IMG/VR virus record: IMGVR_UViG_3300022602_000058
Coordinates: 1 to 64,000 of that record
Source: a virus
Length of the DNA stretch: 64,000 nucleotides
Reading direction: 5' to 3' (one strand)
Shown: piece after piece, positions 1-55,596 of the stretch
Position numbering within the stretch: the first letter of the stretch is position 1
Layout of the letters: the number at the start of each line of letters is the position of its first letter
Program-made: the position numbers and the translations under genes
The notes under the pieces: model-generated
The model's database searches: none
Told to the model about the DNA's origin: nothing
The model's input: only the letters and a program-made list of their open reading frames with translations

Positions 1-17
1 GAAACAATTTTTAAATA

Positions 18-887
18 ATGAAAATTAAGCGGATACATACAATATTACGAAATAATGAGGATGTATATAACATTGAAGTAGCAGATAATAATAATTATTA
101 TGCAAACAATATACTTGTCAGCAACTGCCACCGTTTACGTAAAGGTAATAAGGTTAATGATATACTCAAAAAGATTAAAACGCCTTATAGATTTGGGTTT
201 ACAGGTACAATGCCTGAAGAGAATCTCGATCAATGGAATATTATAGGTAAGATAGGACCTGTCATTTACGAAAAAAATAGTTTCGATCTAAGACAAGAAA
301 ATTATGTAAGTAACGCTTCAATTCAAATATTAAAACTTATACATAAAGACAGACTGTCAGTACCGGAAGGTGGCAATGCTTATAGAGCAGAACTTGAGTA
401 CCTCACAACATGTAAATTTCGTAATGAGCTCATTACTAAGCTTGCCCAGGGATTAAAGCAAAATACTCTTATCATGGTAGACTTCATCCAACATGGTGAA
501 TTACTTTTTGATATGCTTCAAAAGACGCTACCAGATAAACAGTGTTTTTTTATACGAGGTGAGGTGGAAGTAGAAGAAAGAGATAAAGTACGACAGCTTA
601 TGGAAACTAATAGCAATGTTGTTGTTGTTGCTATCTCTAAGATTTTTTCTACAGGCATTAACATTAAGAATTTACATTACATAGTTTTTGCATGTGGCGG
701 TAAAGCTAAAATAAAAATTGTTCAATCAATAGGTCGCGGTCTTAGGTTGCATAAAGATAAGACTAAGCTTATAATATTCGACATAGCTGATGATCTCCGC
801 TATAGCGCCGCCCACGCTTTAAAACGGCAAGCACTTTATGAAAAAGAACACATCACCTTTGCAATCAAAGAAATCGAAGAAAAGTAA
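18..887 (+). CDS. uvsW: UvsW-like helicase, C-terminal half, with split-intein C-fragment at its N-terminus
   Basis: Residues from about 37 on match the second half of T4 UvsW, a superfamily 2 helicase acting on recombination intermediates and stalled forks: CHRLRKG (end of motif II), GFTGTMP (motif III), FSTGINIKNLH (motif V) and QSIGRGLR (motif VI). Walker A and the first half of motif II (DE) are absent. Residues 1-36 instead look like an intein C-terminus: YNIEVADNNNYYANN (block F) and ILVSN followed by Cys (block G). An in-frame TAA at 12-14 lies just before the ATG, so this is a separate ORF. The N-terminal half with IntN must lie upstream of the window. Protein trans-splicing would restore the DECH box. 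The 3' end overlaps the sigma gene by 50 bases. Confidence 0.88.
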   Translation: MKIKRIHTILRNNEDVYNIEVADNNNYYANNILVSNCHRLRKGNKVNDILKKIKTPYRFGFTGTMPEENLDQWNIIGKIGPVIYEKNSFDLRQENYVSNASIQILKLIHKDRLSVPEGGNAYRAELEYLTTCKFRNELITKLAQGLKQNTLIMVDFIQHGELLFDMLQKTLPDKQCFFIRGEVEVEERDKVRQLMETNSNVVVVAISKIFSTGINIKNLHYIVFACGGKAKIKIVQSIGRGLRLHKDKTKLIIFDIADDLRYSAAHALKRQALYEKEHITFAIKEIEEK

Positions 888-1452
888 GCTTAAGAAAGAG
901 CCTAAAATTCTAGATTTAAATCTTCCTATTGATGATACAGAAGATTTAGTTGAGATGATACCTGATGAAATACTACAGGCTATTCCTCTTGTTGAGGAGC
1001 AAGAAGCTCAACCGAAGAAAATTAAGCCTAAGGATAAGATTCATTATGTTAATAGTAGAGAATTTGAAGAGGAAATTAAAAACTACTATAAAACTGATAT
1101 TCTATCTGAGAAGGTATGTGATAGCTTAAACAAGATTGCTAATGGATTATCTTATGCACCTAACTTTATGAATTATTCGTATAAGGAAGAGATGGTAGGA
1201 GATGCAATTGTAAAGATGTTTTCAGCTTTAAAGAATAAAAAGTTTAAGATTGATTGTGGTTTCAGTCCATTCTCATATTTCACCACTATTGCCTTCCATG
1301 CATTTATTAATAGAATAAAAAAGGAAAAGAAACATCATGAAGCACTAAATGAGTATAGAGATAAAGTATATACTGAATTAATGCTTAACCCTGAAGAGAA
1401 TAATGGAGCTCATATCTACATTGAACCAACAGGTGACGATCCTGAAGAATAA
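838..1452 (+). CDS. 55: Late-transcription sigma factor, T4 gp55-like
   Basis: The central part (about residues 75-170) resembles T4 gp55, the small sigma factor that directs host RNA polymerase to late promoters consisting only of a -10-like TATAAATA box. The recognisable stretch covers YKEEMVGDAIVKMFSALKN, then FSPFSYFTTIAFHAF, then NRIKKEKK, matching gp55's sigma region 2-like block. The N-terminus (residues 1-60) is a lysine- and acid-rich extension not found in T4. The start overlaps uvsW by 50 bases and the next in-frame Met is about 40 codons later. It is the natural partner of the many TAAATA boxes found in front of structural genes in this window. Its co-activator gp33 was not identified. 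Confidence 0.85.
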   Translation: MKKNTSPLQSKKSKKSKLKKEPKILDLNLPIDDTEDLVEMIPDEILQAIPLVEEQEAQPKKIKPKDKIHYVNSREFEEEIKNYYKTDILSEKVCDSLNKIANGLSYAPNFMNYSYKEEMVGDAIVKMFSALKNKKFKIDCGFSPFSYFTTIAFHAFINRIKKEKKHHEALNEYRDKVYTELMLNPEENNGAHIYIEPTGDDPEE

Positions 1453-2516: not shown

Positions 2517-4324
2517 AGCAGATTAATTTTAAAAATATTACAATAAAGAATTTTCTCTCGGTTGGTAATATTCCCGTAACAGTAGACTTTAAGCGAGGTT
2601 TACACATTATTACAGGTATTAATAAAGACAAAGAGGACCGTCAAAACGGTGTAGGTAAATCAACAATTGCTGATGCAATTAACTTTGCCGTGTTTGGTGA
2701 AACTCTTCGTGATCTTAAGAAAGAATTTATTGTCAATAGTATTAACAAAAAGAATTGTGAAATTATTTTGGAAGCCTCTGTAATACAGTTTGATAGTACA
2801 GAACATATTAAGATAGTACGTACATTAGAACCATCAAAGTGTTTTATCTATATAAATGGAGAGGATAAAACACGAGACAGTATTTCAAATACTAATGACT
2901 TCATCATGAAGAAATTTAACTGCACACCTGAAATCTTTCAAAACTGTGTAATTATGACCATAAACAATACAACTCCGTTTATGGCCAAGAAGAAGCAAGA
3001 AAAAAGAAAGTTTATTGAAGATATTTTCAATCTTGGTATTTTTAGTAATATGTCTAATTTACTAAAAACCGATATAACTGAAAATAAAAAAGCTCTTGAT
3101 ATTGAAGGTACACGATATGAAGAAGTAGATAAGACTCTTGGAAGTTATATCCGTCAGCGTGACAATTCAATTGAAGAGCGAAAGCTAAAACATGAAAAAT
3201 ATACTCAACGTAAAATTAATAACGCTAATGAAATAGTAGAAATTAACGAGAAGATAAATTCTTTCAAGAGTAAGAGCGTAGATAATATAAACGTAGCTAT
3301 CGACAAATTAAAAGAAGCTACAACCAAGAATGATAAAAAGATTCAAGATAATAGGCATCAAAAAAGTGAAAGTCAGACTCTTATAACTCAACTACAAAAG
3401 CAAATAGCAGCTGTCGGTACAGATAAAGATAAATGCCCGACATGTCTACGTTCAATTGAGGAAAGTGATAAGAATCATATTAAGCGTGAAAAGAAAGCTC
3501 TTAATGATAAGATATCAGAATATCAATTGACTATTACTGAATGTAATAACGTTGAGATGAGTCTTTTAGAGAAAAAAGCTGAAATTGCTACCAAGACAAA
3601 ACAACTAGAGAGTAGTATTCACGCGTATGAATTAGAGTTAAAGGATCAAGAAAAATATAAGTCAAGACTTGATCAATTAAATGAATGGCAAGTGATGTTA
3701 GATCAGGATTTACATGACCTTGAACAAGCATCCACACAGTTTGATAATTTAATTAATGAAAAGAGTACTGAGTTAGATAAACTTAAGGATAGCTTAGATA
3801 AGATTAAAAATACAACACATGTATTAGATGTGGTAAAGTTTGTTGTATCTGAAGAAGGCGTAAAATCTTATCTTGTAAAGAAAATACTTCAACTCTTCAA
3901 CAGTAAACTTTCCTATTATCTTCAAAAAATGGACGCAAATTGCATTTGTACATTTAATGAATACTTTGAAGAAGAAATTGTCGACTTAAAAGGCACACCT
4001 CGTTCTTATTTTAATTTTAGTGGAGCCGAAAGAAAGAATATGGACCTTGCCTGTCTATTCACTTTTATGGACATGCGTAGGTTACAAGGTGACGTCTGTT
4101 TTAATTTTAGCATTTATGATGAGCTTTTTGATTCAAGTCTTGATGCACGTGGCATCGAACTTGTTATCAGTGTATTGAAGGAACGTGTTGAGAAATACAA
4201 TGAGAGTATTATGGTAATAAGTCATCGCAAAGAAAGTGTAAAAGCTGCTACAGGTGATGTTATTTTTCTAGAAAAGTGCAATGGTATAACAAGACGCGTT
4301 GATTACGTAGATACAGCTCTATAA
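2513..4324 (+). CDS. 46: Recombination nuclease ATPase subunit gp46 (SbcC/Rad50-like)
   Basis: SMC/Rad50-type ATPase. The N-terminal half of the ATPase carries a Walker A in the form NGVGKST (about residues 46-52). A long coiled-coil follows, with a zinc-hook motif CPTCLRS at its turn. The C-terminal half has the signature FSGAERKNMDLA and Walker B-like IYDELFDSSLD. The 603-residue length is close to T4 gp46 (560). It overlaps gene 47 by four bases (ATGA) and is expected to work as the gp46-gp47 complex that makes 3' tails for UvsX strand invasion. Confidence 0.93.
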   Translation: MKQINFKNITIKNFLSVGNIPVTVDFKRGLHIITGINKDKEDRQNGVGKSTIADAINFAVFGETLRDLKKEFIVNSINKKNCEIILEASVIQFDSTEHIKIVRTLEPSKCFIYINGEDKTRDSISNTNDFIMKKFNCTPEIFQNCVIMTINNTTPFMAKKKQEKRKFIEDIFNLGIFSNMSNLLKTDITENKKALDIEGTRYEEVDKTLGSYIRQRDNSIEERKLKHEKYTQRKINNANEIVEINEKINSFKSKSVDNINVAIDKLKEATTKNDKKIQDNRHQKSESQTLITQLQKQIAAVGTDKDKCPTCLRSIEESDKNHIKREKKALNDKISEYQLTITECNNVEMSLLEKKAEIATKTKQLESSIHAYELELKDQEKYKSRLDQLNEWQVMLDQDLHDLEQASTQFDNLINEKSTELDKLKDSLDKIKNTTHVLDVVKFVVSEEGVKSYLVKKILQLFNSKLSYYLQKMDANCICTFNEYFEEEIVDLKGTPRSYFNFSGAERKNMDLACLFTFMDMRRLQGDVCFNFSIYDELFDSSLDARGIELVISVLKERVEKYNESIMVISHRKESVKAATGDVIFLEKCNGITRRVDYVDTAL

Positions 4325-4334
4325 TTATATAAAC

Positions 4335-5558
4335 ATGATAAGCCCATTCGCCTCACCGTTTGCGTCTCCTTTCGCTTCACCCTTTGGTACAACACCACTA
4401 CAACCGCTTGCACCGGCACAGCCTATTATTGAGCAACCACCTGAGCTTTCACTAAAGCGCGTAATGAATTATTATGCTGATTATAGCGGATGTGGGTTCT
4501 GGCGATTGATATGGCCAGAGCATATTCTTAATGCACATCAAAAGCAAGTAGTCCATGGTAGTACAATGATGTGCTTTGACCCTAATTACTTTAGAGGTGC
4601 TGAATGTGTACGTATTCAACGTCAAGCAACACCACATCAATTACAATTTGTTAGATTTCTTAAAGAGCTTAGTAAACAGCTTGGATTCAGAATTATTTAC
4701 GAGATTGACGATCTTATTTTTAGTGAAGATATTCCTGAGTATAATAAGTTTAAACCTGCTTTTGTAAATCCTGAAATTCGTAAAACAGCTCAAGAGATTA
4801 TGGAGTTGTGTGATGAAGTGACTGTAACTTGTGATTTCATGAAAGAGTATTATATGGGTAAAACAGCGAACAAGAATGTTACTGTTATACCTAATTACCC
4901 ACCAAAGTTCTGGATGGGTAATTTCTATAATGAAAAGAAGATTTCAGATAACTACGATAGGTTCCAGAAGAAGCCTCGTATTCTCTATGCTGGCTCAGGT
5001 GCACACTTTGATGTTGATAACCGTGTTGGTCAGAATGACGACTTTGCACATGTAAATCGCGTCATTCGTGCAACTAAGGACAAATATCAATGGGTATTTC
5101 TCGGTGCATACCCGCTTCCGCTGCACGATCTTATTCAGAGTAGAGAATTTGAATACCACCCTTGGGAAACTCTTTATAGATACCCTGAAAAGATTGCTAG
5201 CTTGAATGTGAATATGATGGTTGCACCTCTACAGAACAACACATTTAATAAAGCTAAGTCAGATCTTAAGTTTATTGAGGCTTGTAGTTACGGTTTACCG
5301 ATTGCTTGTCAAAATATTGTAACGTATGAAAATGCACCTTACAAGTTTGATACAGGTGAGGAAATGATTGATATTGTTGATGATGTTCTCTCTAGGAAGG
5401 GCCGATACATGAATATTTCATCTAAGATGCGTAAGCTTGCTGATGAGCGTTGGCTTGAGAATGAGGATAATATCAACAAATATGTCGAACTTCATACATT
5501 GCCATATGGACATAAAGATAGAAAGCTTTTGAATGCTATCAATGGTATTAAGGCTTGA
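4335..5558 (+). CDS. Glycosyltransferase, GT4-like, with SPFA repeats at the N-terminus
   Basis: The protein has a Rossmann-type glycosyltransferase pattern: an N-terminal half with FRIIYEIDDLIF and VTVTCDFMKEYY, then KPRILYAGSGAHFD at the domain linker. A C-terminal sugar-nucleotide site contains KSDLKFIEACSYGLPIAC, the E-x7-G-P type motif of GT-B enzymes. Residues 1-20 are a low-complexity run of S-P-F-A units. The substrate is unknown; it could modify phage DNA bases, virion proteins or host surface sugars. It lies ten bases after gene 46 and is followed by the polymerase promoter. Lysine- and AT-rich coding matches its neighbours, so there is no sign of recent transfer. Confidence 0.75.
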   Translation: MISPFASPFASPFASPFGTTPLQPLAPAQPIIEQPPELSLKRVMNYYADYSGCGFWRLIWPEHILNAHQKQVVHGSTMMCFDPNYFRGAECVRIQRQATPHQLQFVRFLKELSKQLGFRIIYEIDDLIFSEDIPEYNKFKPAFVNPEIRKTAQEIMELCDEVTVTCDFMKEYYMGKTANKNVTVIPNYPPKFWMGNFYNEKKISDNYDRFQKKPRILYAGSGAHFDVDNRVGQNDDFAHVNRVIRATKDKYQWVFLGAYPLPLHDLIQSREFEYHPWETLYRYPEKIASLNVNMMVAPLQNNTFNKAKSDLKFIEACSYGLPIACQNIVTYENAPYKFDTGEEMIDIVDDVLSRKGRYMNISSKMRKLADERWLENEDNINKYVELHTLPYGHKDRKLLNAINGIKA

Positions 5559-5588: not shown

Positions 5589-5993
5589 GTGTACAGGAAC
5601 GTTTCATACTCACCACAAGATCAAACCATTCATCTCCATACATGGGATGAGAATGGTAAGAGAGTAACCGTACAGTCAACGTACGAGCCTTATATCTATC
5701 TTGAGACAAATAATGCGCCAGACGCTCATAGTATCTTTAATACTAAGTTAAAGAAAAAGAAATTTAGGAATCAATACGATAGATCCAAATATATCAAGGA
5801 CAATAAGGTAACGCGAGTATTTGAAAACTTTAACGTATACCAACAATTTTTGATTGATGCATACTGGCAGGAGAATGAAAAACCTGAATTTACAAAGAAT
5901 CAATTAAAGGTATATTTTATTGATATCGAGACCGACTGTCATAATGTTAAGGATAGTAAAAAAATTAAAATTCGCAAAAAAACAATTTCTTGA
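5589..5993 (+). CDS. 43A: DNA polymerase gp43, N-terminal fragment
   Basis: This is the start of a family B DNA polymerase of the T4 gp43 type: N-terminal domain (YSPQDQTIHLHTWDENGK resembling the gp43 N-terminus), then the beginning of the 3'-5' exonuclease with its Exo I motif FIDIET near residue 114. After that motif the protein runs off into DCHNVKDSKKIKIRKK and stops, unlike any polymerase continuation I know. The rest of the polymerase is encoded at 6805-9165, beyond an HNH endonuclease gene. The start is GTG at 5589, chosen because the conserved N-terminus begins there and a promoter ends seven bases before. Whether the two fragments assemble or the RNA is spliced cannot be told from sequence. 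Confidence 0.85.
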   Translation: MYRNVSYSPQDQTIHLHTWDENGKRVTVQSTYEPYIYLETNNAPDAHSIFNTKLKKKKFRNQYDRSKYIKDNKVTRVFENFNVYQQFLIDAYWQENEKPEFTKNQLKVYFIDIETDCHNVKDSKKIKIRKKTIS

Positions 5994-6005
5994 TATAGAG
6001 ACGTA

Positions 6006-6011
6006 TAAATA
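6006..6011 (+). promoter_or_regulatory. Late promoter box of the HNH gene
   Basis: TAAATA within TATAAATA, exactly five bases before the ATG at 6017. This is the commonest geometry of late boxes in the window. Confidence 0.65.
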
Positions 6012-6016
6012 ATTTA

Positions 6017-6823
6017 ATGGATTATAAGTTAATATATCAAAGATTATGTCTCCGCGGGCAAACTAGAACCAAAAATAGTAATATATATCTCGAAAAACAT
6101 CACATTCTACCAAAATGCCTTGGTGGAGACAATTCATTTGCTAACCTAACACTTCTTACAGCCCGTGAACACTATATAGCTCATTACTTGCTGTGTAAGG
6201 TATATAACGATAGCAACATATCAGTTCGAGCTAAATTATCCTCTGCTTTTAACAGAATGTGTACGCTTAATACACATAAACGCCAATTTACATCGCGTCA
6301 ATATGATGTTGCGAGAAAGTATTTTTCTAAAAATCATCATATGAAGAGTAAGGAGTGTAGGGATAAGGTTGCCCTAGCTCTTAGGAAGAAAGGTATAATT
6401 ACAAGACAGCTTAGAGAGCAGCTGCTACCGCTGTGTAAGTGCGGTTGCGGTAAAAAGGTAAAAAATAAATACCACCAATATCTTTATAATCACTGGGACA
6501 GAAGTGTAACAAAATCAGGCTTTACAGAAGAAGTACGTAAACGGCTAAGCGAAAAAGCTATAAAGCGTATATTAAGCCTCACGGATAAGGAAAAGAAAGA
6601 CAGATTACAAAAATCCTTGCATAGTGAGAAAGTGGATCATATTATGAGAGGTAGAAAGATATCTCTCTCCAAAAGAGGGAAGAAAACCAACCAACAAAAT
6701 ATAATGGGTGAAAGATTTGCGAATATGACGGAGGATGAGTTTTTATTATACTTAAACACAGTATCACCAAAGGTATGGACAAGATATACAAAATTAAGAA
6801 ATAGATGTCTGAACAAGAAGTAA
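6017..6823 (+). CDS. Free-standing HNH homing endonuclease between polymerase halves
   Basis: The N-terminus has the phage HNH pattern EKHHILPKCLGG (residues 26-37), then NLTLLTAREHYIAHYLL, giving His-His, Asn and His ligands and catalytic residues. A cysteine cluster CKCGCGKKV near residue 140 looks like a small zinc-binding DNA-recognition element, followed by a lysine-rich helical tail (NUMOD-like). At 268 residues it is a full-length homing endonuclease with its own late promoter. Its last 19 bases overlap the start of the polymerase C-fragment in another frame, which would couple their translation. No group I intron core could be recognised around it, so I treat it as a free-standing mobile gene that has split gene 43. 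Confidence 0.85.
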   Translation: MDYKLIYQRLCLRGQTRTKNSNIYLEKHHILPKCLGGDNSFANLTLLTAREHYIAHYLLCKVYNDSNISVRAKLSSAFNRMCTLNTHKRQFTSRQYDVARKYFSKNHHMKSKECRDKVALALRKKGIITRQLREQLLPLCKCGCGKKVKNKYHQYLYNHWDRSVTKSGFTEEVRKRLSEKAIKRILSLTDKEKKDRLQKSLHSEKVDHIMRGRKISLSKRGKKTNQQNIMGERFANMTEDEFLLYLNTVSPKVWTRYTKLRNRCLNKK

Positions 6824-9165
6824 CATTAGGGCACTTCCGTAATAATAAATTATGGGAACAAGACTACGAGGTGTGGGATGAAAAAACCGGTACATGGATA
6901 GATTATTTTTCATCATCTTATTCTACAGACACATCGTTTCCGAACCCCCAGGATCCCGATCATCCCATTAATATCATAACTATCTATGACACCATAACAA
7001 AGAAGTTTTATTCATGGGGACTTAAACCTTATAAAGCAAAATCTGTTGATGTAACATATATTGCATGTAAGACAGAGGAAGAGCTATTGCATAAGTTTGT
7101 TACTTTCTTTAGTAAAGATTATTGCGATATCCTTTCGGGATGGAACTCAGAATTTTTTGATGTACCTTATGTTATTAATCGAGTAAGAAAAGTTTTAGGT
7201 GAAGAATCAATGCAAAAACTTTCACCAGCAGGTTCATTGCGTTCAAGAACCTTTATGGGTAAGTATGGTAGAGAACAAGTTAAATGGCATATTGAGGGAT
7301 TATCTTGTGTTGATTATCTTGATATCTATAAACGTTTCTGTCAAACTCTTCGTGAGTCTTATAAATTAGATGCGATTGGCGAAGTGGAATTACAAGAGCG
7401 TAAGATTGATTACGGTGATCAGAATTTGACTGAACTTGCTGATAATGACTGGGATACTTTTGTTGATTATAATATTCAGGACGTTAATCTTTTAGTAAGA
7501 CTAGAGCAAAAACTTCAGTATATTCAATTATTACGAATGATTGCTTATGCTGGTCTTACGACGTTTGAAGGAGCACTTGGATCACTTTCTGTTATTACCG
7601 GTCTTTGCTCTATTCGTGCACGTCTTAAGGATAAGCGTATTCCCACTTTTGTAAAGGATGTACAAGAGGGTACAAAGAATGCTGGTGCGTATGTAGCAGA
7701 TCCACAGCAAGGTTTTCAAGAGCATATAGTATCGTTGGACGCTAATAGTCTATACCCCAACACGATGATTACACTTAATCTCTCACCAGAGACAAAAGTA
7801 GGTAAGATCATTGGAAAGAATGATAAAGAAATTACTATTAAACACGTAAATGGTCAAACGTTCAATCTTACACATGAAAAGTTTGCTGCGTTTGTTAAAC
7901 AGGAGGAGATAGCAATTTCACGTGCTAAAATTCTTTTTACACAAAAGGAGAAAGGTATTATACCTGATACAATTGACTATTATTACAATAAGCGTGTAGA
8001 GGTTAAGAAGCAACTTACTAAAGCAAAGAAAAAATCGCTTACTCTTACTGAAAACACAAAAGAGTATGATAATAATCAGATCGAAATTGACCGACTAAAC
8101 ATTCGTCAGCATACTATTAAGATTTTGATGAATACAGTGTATGGATATTTTGGCAATAAACATAGTCCGTTAGGTGACGATGAACTTGCCGAATCTATTA
8201 CACTTACCGGGCAAGCTGTTATTAAAGAATCAAATCGTATTTTGACTGAATATATCAAGACAAATACCGGTCTGACCGATGAAGATCTAAAAGATAATTC
8301 ACCTATTATCTATAACGATACAGATTCAAGTTATATTTCAATTAAACATCTTGTTAAAGCGAAAAAGATCCCTGTATTTGATAAGGACGGTAATGTACAT
8401 CCTGATTATTACAAAGCTGTTGCTGATATTGAAGATCATTTGAATAATGAAATTATTAAATGGGGCAAAAGCGCGTTAGGATCAAAGGATTGTCGACTTG
8501 TGTTCAAGCGTGAAGCTATTGCTGATGTCGGGCTGTTTCTAGCAAAGAAACGTTACGTCCTGCATACACTTGACGTCGAAGGCATTCCTGGTAAGAAATT
8601 TAAGTATACAGGCGTTGAAGTTGTACGTACAACCATGCCTACACCTATTAAACCTTACGTTAAAAAAATTATTGAAACAATGCTTTTGACGAAAGACTAT
8701 AACGCCACTAATAAAGTGTTTAATGAAACATACGAAATCTTTAAGAAATTACCACTTGAAGATATTGCATTTGTAATGGGTGTGAAGGGATATGAAAAGT
8801 ATGCCAATCGTAGTAATGGATTTGAGACAGTAAAGGGAATGCCCAAACACGTTAAAGCTGCATACTATCATAATATTCTTCTTGATCGATTCGGTATTGA
8901 ACGAAAATATGAAAAGATGACATCAGGTGATAAGGTAAGATTCTTTGAAGTAAAGAAACCTAATAGCTTTGGACTATCTGTTATTGGATACAAATACTAT
9001 TACCCTAAGGAGTTTCAATCTATTTTTGAAATTGATTATGAAACAATGTTTGAAAAGATTATCTATTCTGTTATTGAACGTTTTTACGAAGCTGTAAATT
9101 GGACAGTAAAAAGACCAGGTAATGATGCGCAGATTGATCTTTTTGATTTACTTGGAATGGAATAG
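6805..9165 (+). CDS. 43B: DNA polymerase gp43, C-terminal fragment (exonuclease remainder and polymerase)
   Basis: From residue about 45 (FPNPQDPDHPINIITIYDT) this is T4 gp43-like. Exo II is GWNSEFFDVPYVINR, Exo III is DYNIQDV. Polymerase motif A is SLDANSLYPNT, motif B KILMNTVYGYFGN, motif C IYNDTDSSYI. The C-terminus QIDLFDLLG resembles the sliding-clamp binding tail of gp43. The Exo I aspartate and glutamate (DIET) are on the separate N-fragment. Proofreading would therefore need the two pieces to associate. The first 44 residues (starting MSEQEVTLGHFRNNK) are not recognisable and may come from the insertion event. The ATG at 6805 overlaps the end of the HNH gene. Confidence 0.9.
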   Translation: MSEQEVTLGHFRNNKLWEQDYEVWDEKTGTWIDYFSSSYSTDTSFPNPQDPDHPINIITIYDTITKKFYSWGLKPYKAKSVDVTYIACKTEEELLHKFVTFFSKDYCDILSGWNSEFFDVPYVINRVRKVLGEESMQKLSPAGSLRSRTFMGKYGREQVKWHIEGLSCVDYLDIYKRFCQTLRESYKLDAIGEVELQERKIDYGDQNLTELADNDWDTFVDYNIQDVNLLVRLEQKLQYIQLLRMIAYAGLTTFEGALGSLSVITGLCSIRARLKDKRIPTFVKDVQEGTKNAGAYVADPQQGFQEHIVSLDANSLYPNTMITLNLSPETKVGKIIGKNDKEITIKHVNGQTFNLTHEKFAAFVKQEEIAISRAKILFTQKEKGIIPDTIDYYYNKRVEVKKQLTKAKKKSLTLTENTKEYDNNQIEIDRLNIRQHTIKILMNTVYGYFGNKHSPLGDDELAESITLTGQAVIKESNRILTEYIKTNTGLTDEDLKDNSPIIYNDTDSSYISIKHLVKAKKIPVFDKDGNVHPDYYKAVADIEDHLNNEIIKWGKSALGSKDCRLVFKREAIADVGLFLAKKRYVLHTLDVEGIPGKKFKYTGVEVVRTTMPTPIKPYVKKIIETMLLTKDYNATNKVFNETYEIFKKLPLEDIAFVMGVKGYEKYANRSNGFETVKGMPKHVKAAYYHNILLDRFGIERKYEKMTSGDKVRFFEVKKPNSFGLSVIGYKYYYPKEFQSIFEIDYETMFEKIIYSVIERFYEAVNWTVKRPGNDAQIDLFDLLGME

Positions 9166-10789: not shown

Positions 10790-10851
10790 TGAGTAAAGTT
10801 GTTGTACCAGTTTCCGGTGGGATAGGTAATAGTATTGACAATACTAATTAA
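10789..10851 (+). pseudogene. Truncated start of a PP-loop ATPase (QueC-like) gene
   Basis: A 20-codon ORF coupled to uvsX by TAATG. It begins MSKVVVPVSGGIG, the typical N-terminus of an ATP-pyrophosphatase of the QueC/asparagine-synthase type (SGGxDS), then diverges and stops after SIDNTN. The GIY-YIG endonuclease gene ends on the opposite strand at 10844, inside this ORF. An intact queC with the same motif starts at 11547. The simplest reading is that a homing endonuclease landed in the PP-loop of an ancestral gene and only its first codons remain. It is too short to be functional. Confidence 0.55.
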
Positions 10852-11479
10852 CCATCTCAAACCCTTTTTCTCTACCTTGCTTGAGCTTTCCTTTACGTTT
10901 TAAGAACCCTACATCAAAGCCAAATAAATTAAAGAATTCTCTGTTATTCTTAATATTTACAATTTTTCCACATGGCAACTTAACACAAAACGGTCGACTC
11001 TTTATATCACTTAGCTTTGATTTAACATCTGCACGGAAAGAAGGGTTGTCCTTTTTTAATCTTTGACTCTTTGCTTCGCTCACACCTGGCAGGTTGTTGA
11101 GATTATTGATCTTCATCTTTTCTGACATTAATCTTCTTCTCTCCTTCGACCATATTTTTTTCTTTTGCTCGTCAGTGTATTTGAATCGTAACCCGGTTGT
11201 GTCAAAATCTTCTGTTTGAATATGCATATTATACCAATCATTTGATAGCTTAACATTCCATAGCTTTTGATAATAAATTTCTCTTTTATTAAGATCAGCT
11301 GCATTTAGGCAATATTCGATAATATCTTTTTTAAAATTGTCTATCCCTAAAATCTTTATATCATTTTTTAGCCATTTCGAGCTACCGAAATAGTTTTCAT
11401 GCCCTTTATCAACCTTCTTTTTACCTATATAACGCTTGCCTGTTACGATATTCGTTGTAATGTAGATATAACCAAACAT
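10844..11479 (-). CDS. GIY-YIG homing endonuclease
   Basis: GIY-YIG nuclease domain at the N-terminus: GYIYITTNIVTGKRYIGKK carries both the YIY and YIG tripeptides, followed by KDIIEYC and a catalytic-Glu candidate in LNKREIYYQ. The middle is a basic helical DNA-binding region, and PFCVKLPCGKIVNIKNNREF at the end looks like a NUMOD-type recognition module. The 211-residue length is normal for Seg-like free-standing enzymes. It sits on the strand opposite its neighbours between uvsX and queC, with its own late promoter. Confidence 0.85.
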   Translation of the reverse strand: MFGYIYITTNIVTGKRYIGKKKVDKGHENYFGSSKWLKNDIKILGIDNFKKDIIEYCLNAADLNKREIYYQKLWNVKLSNDWYNMHIQTEDFDTTGLRFKYTDEQKKKIWSKERRRLMSEKMKINNLNNLPGVSEAKSQRLKKDNPSFRADVKSKLSDIKSRPFCVKLPCGKIVNIKNNREFFNLFGFDVGFLKRKGKLKQGREKGFEMVN

Positions 11480-55590: not shown

Positions 55591-55596
55591 TATTTA
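55591..55596 (-). promoter_or_regulatory. Late promoter box
   Basis: TAAATA in TATAAATAT on the minus strand, six bases before ATG 55584. Confidence 0.6.

Follow-up and report, generated by a model that had tools for sequence, protein, structure and literature searches.

The stretch of DNA analysed here, the window, covers 64,000 nucleotides (positions 1 to 64,000) of the virus record IMGVR_UViG_3300022602_000058, and its start is the left end of this 90,084-bp linear record. It opens with an open reading frame (ORF; 18-887, plus strand) in which the C-terminal half of a split intein (IntC) is fused to the C-terminal half of the helicase UvsW. IntC comprises 36 amino acids (18-125, plus strand); its residues 1-36 are MKIKRIHTILRNNEDVYNIEVADNNNYYANNILVSN, followed by CHRLRKG. 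Block F is YNIEVADNNNYYANN, block G is ILVSN, and the codon of the C-terminal Asn lies at 123-125. The NCBIfam model intein_Cterm (TIGR01443) matched residues 15-37 with 21.0 bits, above its curated cut-off of 15.6, and Pfam Intein_splicing gave a weak but correctly placed match covering the last 34 positions of the profile (122-155 of 155). The C-extein (126-887, plus strand; 253 amino acids and a stop codon) begins with Cys+1 and contains the second half of the DEXH box and the helicase C domain. This part of the ORF matched Pfam Helicase_C above the cut-off and also ResIII, and the PHROG 'DNA helicase' families 9690 and 16 matched the ORF at 8e-69 and 2e-42, respectively. Its identity as UvsW is indicated by matches to the PDB entries 1rif and 2oca, by PHROG 16, and by synteny with gp55, gp47 and gp46. 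The Asn/Cys fusion of IntC to the UvsW C-half interrupts the helicase motif DE/CH (here and below, the slash marks the interruption). An earlier note, made from the sequence alone, had read intein blocks F and G ahead of the second half of the UvsW DECH box, and TIGR01443, Helicase_C and PHROG agree with this reading. It had also placed the ATG right after an in-frame TAA; the ATG is at 18 and a TAA is present at 12-14, one codon away, but this TAA is not the end of a gene.

Among viral contigs, a scan detected 287 relatives, of which the closest 80 were kept; the counts below refer to these. IntC was kept in four aligned loci, with whole-ORF identities to the window of 61-89% (89% for L004). 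Because it is kept in these loci with a low ratio of nonsynonymous to synonymous substitution rates (dN/dS), IntC ahead of the UvsW C-half is confirmed as a real feature and not a chance resemblance. The site is occupied by IntC in 4 of the 80 uvsW loci, and 63 carry a contiguous DEVH; the pattern gave no score in the remaining 13, which are mostly full length. The close relatives L007 and L011, for example, have a single uninterrupted uvsW ORF with DEVH. The exact 41-bp IntC pattern had zero matches in the viral contigs, and an alignment search of genome contigs with the N-half returned a single distant match. A match in Streptococcus phage GXN1 was tried as a uvsW intein and rejected; the inteins of this phage sit in another gene (terminase by eye).

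The upstream part of the locus is complete in L004, L022/L021 and L026. It consists of a UvsW N-half that ends in VDE/C and continues into the N-terminal half of the intein (IntN), then an endonuclease ORF that overlaps the preceding one, and finally the IntC-UvsW ORF. The same order at the DE/CH site, with a TnsA-like endonuclease ORF in the middle, was found in the lake contigs L004, L022, L026, L138, L139, L145, L153 and L163. An identical site and three-ORF order occur in cultured Salmonella phages of the S16 type (S16, SEA1, CF-SP2) and in Proteus phage PM2. The earlier note had predicted an N-half ending in DE, an IntN starting with Cys and an endonuclease gene; these are present in L004, L022/L021, L026, the S16-type phages and PM2, and those of the window phage lie beyond the contig edge. 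Site anatomy, homology, selection, occupancy and empty sites in uvsW are directly visible in these loci.

The window itself retains the 3′ end of the endonuclease gene. Bases 2-28 (plus strand) encode K Q F L N N E N and a stop codon (TAA at 26-28) in a frame different from that of the IntC ORF, and align in the same frame with the final codons of the endonucleases that are complete in relatives (DNA alignment with L004, L022 and L026). The two ORFs share 11 nt, which is also the case in L004 and L022. These bases bear on the alternative, already named in the earlier note, that the intein is continuous in cis and that its apparent split is an artefact of faulty sequencing or assembly at the contig edge. 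The window ORF does begin 17 bp from the contig end, and genuinely fused sister inteins exist at the same site (L091-L097, described below). However, the first bases of the window are the end of an endonuclease in the L004/L022 frame, and several independent contigs as well as genomes of cultured phages are split at the identical point; we give this alternative almost no weight.

The residues of a class 1 intein, namely Cys1, the block-B TPNH, the C-terminal Asn and Cys+1, were present in the alignments. IntN of L004 matched TIGR01445 with 38.6 bits (cut-off, 24.5), and the PDB sequence relatives of the intein include NrdJ-1. A structural model of the fused sister intein had a predicted local distance difference test score (pLDDT) of 93.4, and its best PDB match was the gp41-1 split intein (E 7.8e-10; template-modelling scores 0.80/0.87). 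The dN/dS was 0.03-0.28 across IntN, endonuclease and IntC wherever computable, and about 0.03-0.11 for IntC where computable; several comparisons of the exteins were saturated at synonymous sites. As the earlier note had observed in the window, the penultimate residue is Ser, which the alignment also places in L004, L022, L026 and L097; His at this position is common but not universal in inteins, and Npu DnaE likewise has Ser. S16 and PM2 retain both the penultimate and the block-F His.

The endonuclease ORFs of L004, L022 and L026 matched the Pfam TnsA-like N-terminal domain (PF08722) above the cut-off (35.6, 28.5 and 26.7 versus 26.5 bits). Residues E180, D212, E223 and K225 (E..D..ExK) are invariant in five homologues, and the N-terminus carries Cys/His motifs. 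In Foldseek searches with a model of moderate quality, TnsA was among the top structural matches, and the Vsr/EDxHD fold (I-Bth0305I, 3r3p) was listed at a probability of 0.92, ranked behind TnsA. The ORF at the uvsW locus is thus classified, from motif and domain, as a predicted TnsA-like PD-(D/E)XK nuclease. L087 and L088, from the same sample, are about 70% identical at the nucleotide level in the N-extein and 98% identical from the insertion site onward. This jump is the footprint of a recent transfer of the intein between different uvsW alleles.

Taken together, the uvsW gene of this T4-type phage is very probably a fractured gene whose halves are joined by a split intein and which is subject to endonuclease homing. 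ORF 1 would encode the UvsW N-half, ending in ...VDE, and an IntN of about 100 amino acids starting with Cys; ORF 2, overlapping ORF 1, would encode the TnsA-like endonuclease; and ORF 3, which opens the window, the 36-amino-acid IntC and the UvsW C-half, whose first residue is Cys. The two intein halves are expected to assemble as one HINT fold and to splice in trans, which would ligate DE to CH and restore helicase motif II. In co-infecting relatives, the uninserted DE/VH site is most likely the target cut by the endonuclease, and the whole IntN-endonuclease-IntC module would then be copied in by recombination. Trans-splicing, DNA cutting and homing are what we infer from the sequences. The break splits helicase motif II, and a working UvsW should therefore need ligation.

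It is also conceivable that the endonuclease broke uvsW into a gene in pieces and that the two polypeptides associate non-covalently without splicing, as for nrdA/mobE of phage Aeh1. Such arrangements occur in T4-type phages; PMC3322345 cites a ribonucleotide reductase of this kind. Moreover, an HNH gene interrupts the DNA polymerase gene of the window, and intein motifs are lacking there. The uvsW break differs in that both of its ends carry intein halves with Cys1, TPNH, the C-terminal Asn and Cys+1 under purifying selection. In addition, DE is separated from CH within helicase motif II, so that unspliced halves are unlikely to work. We regard association without splicing as very improbable.

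Several points weigh against a fractured gene repaired by trans-splicing and spread by homing. IntC of the window and its close lake relatives has Ser in place of the penultimate His and Asn in place of the block-F His, and its rate of splicing is therefore uncertain. These substitutions would also suit a dead remnant, an intein half that no longer splices in a phage living without full UvsW. We consider this hardly credible, since dN/dS is about 0.03-0.05 for both IntC and the C-extein in comparisons of the window with L004 and L022, and the same penultimate Ser is found in Npu DnaE. The model of the endonuclease is of moderate quality only (pLDDT 75; predicted template-modelling score 0.44). 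No UvsW N-half was found elsewhere in the record of the window, the right part of which holds no uvsW ORF. A candidate for it is G001 (L088; 62,503 bp), which terminates within an IntN-bearing uvsW N-half. On the map of G003, a 131-kb relative with an empty site, G001 covers approximately 7.0-71.4 kb and the window's record approximately 70.7-131 kb; the two meet at uvsW without DNA overlap between them. The N-half of G001 and the C-half of the window belong to the same species cluster. G001 is assigned to the window phage only by synteny and species-level similarity, and as the source of the N-half it is a good candidate short of proof. The right ends of L087 and L088 stop at the same IntN base, where the two sequences become near-identical. 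Shared mobile inteins break assemblies in this way, and this may also account for the start point of the window.

A sister intein at the same site was found in both split and fused forms. In L089 and L090 it is split and the endonuclease is present; in L091-L097 it lies within one uninterrupted UvsW ORF and the endonuclease is absent, and L112 has the same fused intein. The two forms share 308-310 of 315 nt in IntN (98%) and 108 of 108 nt in IntC, with exteins about 75-89% identical. The junctions of the split form are CCTTCGTTTTTTATG/TCTCTC and GCAGTTTTTATG/AAAATT, and that of the fused form is CCTTCGTTTTTTATGAAAATT. An endonuclease module of approximately 0.9 kb, located between two TTTTTATG repeats, is gone in the fused form, and the junctions are as expected for a deletion between these repeats. 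The split arrangement and the endonuclease are common to all outgroups, L138 included, and in the tree the fused form falls within the split one, with several forks weakly supported. For these reasons re-fusion is the simpler reading; the split form appears to be older, and a split intein appears to have reverted to cis. Insertion of the endonuclease into a fused ancestor would explain the same alleles less simply.

The endonuclease gene may have its own promoter. A T4-type late box, TATAAATA, lies exactly 5 nt upstream of the endonuclease ATG in L004, L022, L026 and L089. The endonucleases of L138 and L163/L164 likewise have TATAAATA-N5-ATG close to their start; L086 has TGTAAATA. The downstream neighbour of uvsW in the window (838-1452, plus strand) encodes a T4-type, gp55-like late sigma factor (PHROG late sigma transcription factor), which makes TATAAATA late promoters plausible. 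The box is present at 7 sites in the window against 15 expected by chance, i.e. it is rarer, and at three of the seven an ATG follows at exactly 5 nt, one of them being that of the HNH gene in the polymerase gene. Sites at 6004, 21697, 25251 and 55591 have an ATG 5 nt downstream (6 nt at 55591). With this spacing, T4-type late transcription would begin close to the A of the ATG, and leaderless late mRNAs are possible in this phage group. Late promoters are known to drive homing endonucleases of T4 (PMC2988022). Late expression of the endonuclease from TATAAATA is suggestive and stays so because the box is also coding (YKY).

Other mobile elements were observed in the window and its relatives. 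The DNA polymerase gene of the window (5589-9165) consists of an N part (5589-5993), an HNH homing endonuclease (6017-6823) and a C part (6805-9165), and is uninterrupted in G003. Upstream of the HNH ATG, the polymerase sequence TTGATATxGAGAC recurs in degenerate form, and the box at 6004 precedes this ATG by 5 nt. No intein motif was seen at this break. An Rfam scan of the window gave nothing at the gathering threshold, and a group I intron is therefore unsupported for either the uvsW or the polymerase break. A homing endonuclease ORF (PHROG 314; 10844-11479, minus strand) adjoins a UvsX-like recombinase gene on the opposite strand. L002 carries a free-standing endonuclease ORF (3558-4481; PHROG 4645), LAGLIDADG-like by eye, amid structural genes.

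An alignment search with the endonuclease identified further fractured uvsW genes and split inteins of a gp44-like clamp loader and of terminase; the latter two gene names come from reading the sequences, without a family scan. In L167-L179, gp44-like clamp-loader genes are split at VVLDE/C, with a split intein and a TnsA-like endonuclease between the halves. Terminase members of L140-L166 have a very short IntN, an endonuclease of the same family and a long IntC, at VDE/C or MDE/C. Atypically split terminase inteins are known as the AceL-TerL type. The split terminase inteins at DE/C in L144, L146, L152 and L158 share this atypical split and carry the uvsW-type endonuclease family; the uvsW inteins are split differently, without the very short IntN and long IntC. 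Two terminase-type ORFs (L115, 1-2220; L116, 3-2375) have continuous inteins, and an HNH endonuclease ORF overlaps the middle of each out of frame (452-1141 and 256-951, respectively), i.e. a nested homing endonuclease gene.

Among cultured phages, the uvsW loci of Salmonella phages S16, STP4-a, SEA1 and CF-SP2 and of Proteus phage PM2 resemble the lake family in the DE/CH site, the ORF order and the TnsA-like C-terminal domain of the endonuclease. Their IntN is about 46-47% identical to that of the lake family over the aligned part, and they differ in the canonical penultimate His and in having no late box before the endonuclease. Their split uvsW ORFs are annotated merely as DNA helicase and hypothetical protein. 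The split inteins gp41-1 (PDB 6qaz) and NrdJ-1 (8ubs) are alike in HINT fold and size, and gp41-1 is 30% identical to the fused sister intein; they sit in another host gene and site, whereas IntC of the window has the penultimate Ser and block-F Asn. Dassa and colleagues reportedly described, in 2009, fractured genes of metagenomic phages in which a free-standing endonuclease ORF separates the two halves of a natural split intein. A broken, conserved phage DNA enzyme and an IntC of approximately 36 amino acids starting with Met are common to both cases; the gene here is uvsW, broken at DE/CH, with a TnsA-like endonuclease (E..D..ExK), and the family that they reportedly defined as new is Vsr-related. 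The organization of uvsW is itself of a known type, that of fractured genes carrying natural split inteins. The openly accessible papers examined do not describe a uvsW intein, which is weak evidence of absence. As a host gene of split inteins uvsW is apparently unreported in these papers; the fractured genes of Dassa and colleagues reportedly belong to eight enzyme types, and an intein in a T4-like helicase from Lake Vida is known from the literature.

The uvsW gene would add an apparently unreported host and insertion site to those of natural split inteins, with S16 and PM2 as laboratory phages carrying the system, and the family would be a further supply of orthogonal split inteins. The pair of split and fused alleles and the common Walker B target most deserve to be followed up. 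The near-identical lake alleles offer a natural before-and-after pair for the origin and loss of split inteins. We think it fairly probable that one TnsA-like endonuclease lineage rides split inteins at the Walker B DE/C of UvsW, gp44 and terminase, and that its loss between short repeats yields a contiguous intein (L089/L090 to L091-L097). If this is true, split inteins would be a reversible state driven by the endonuclease and not an end point.
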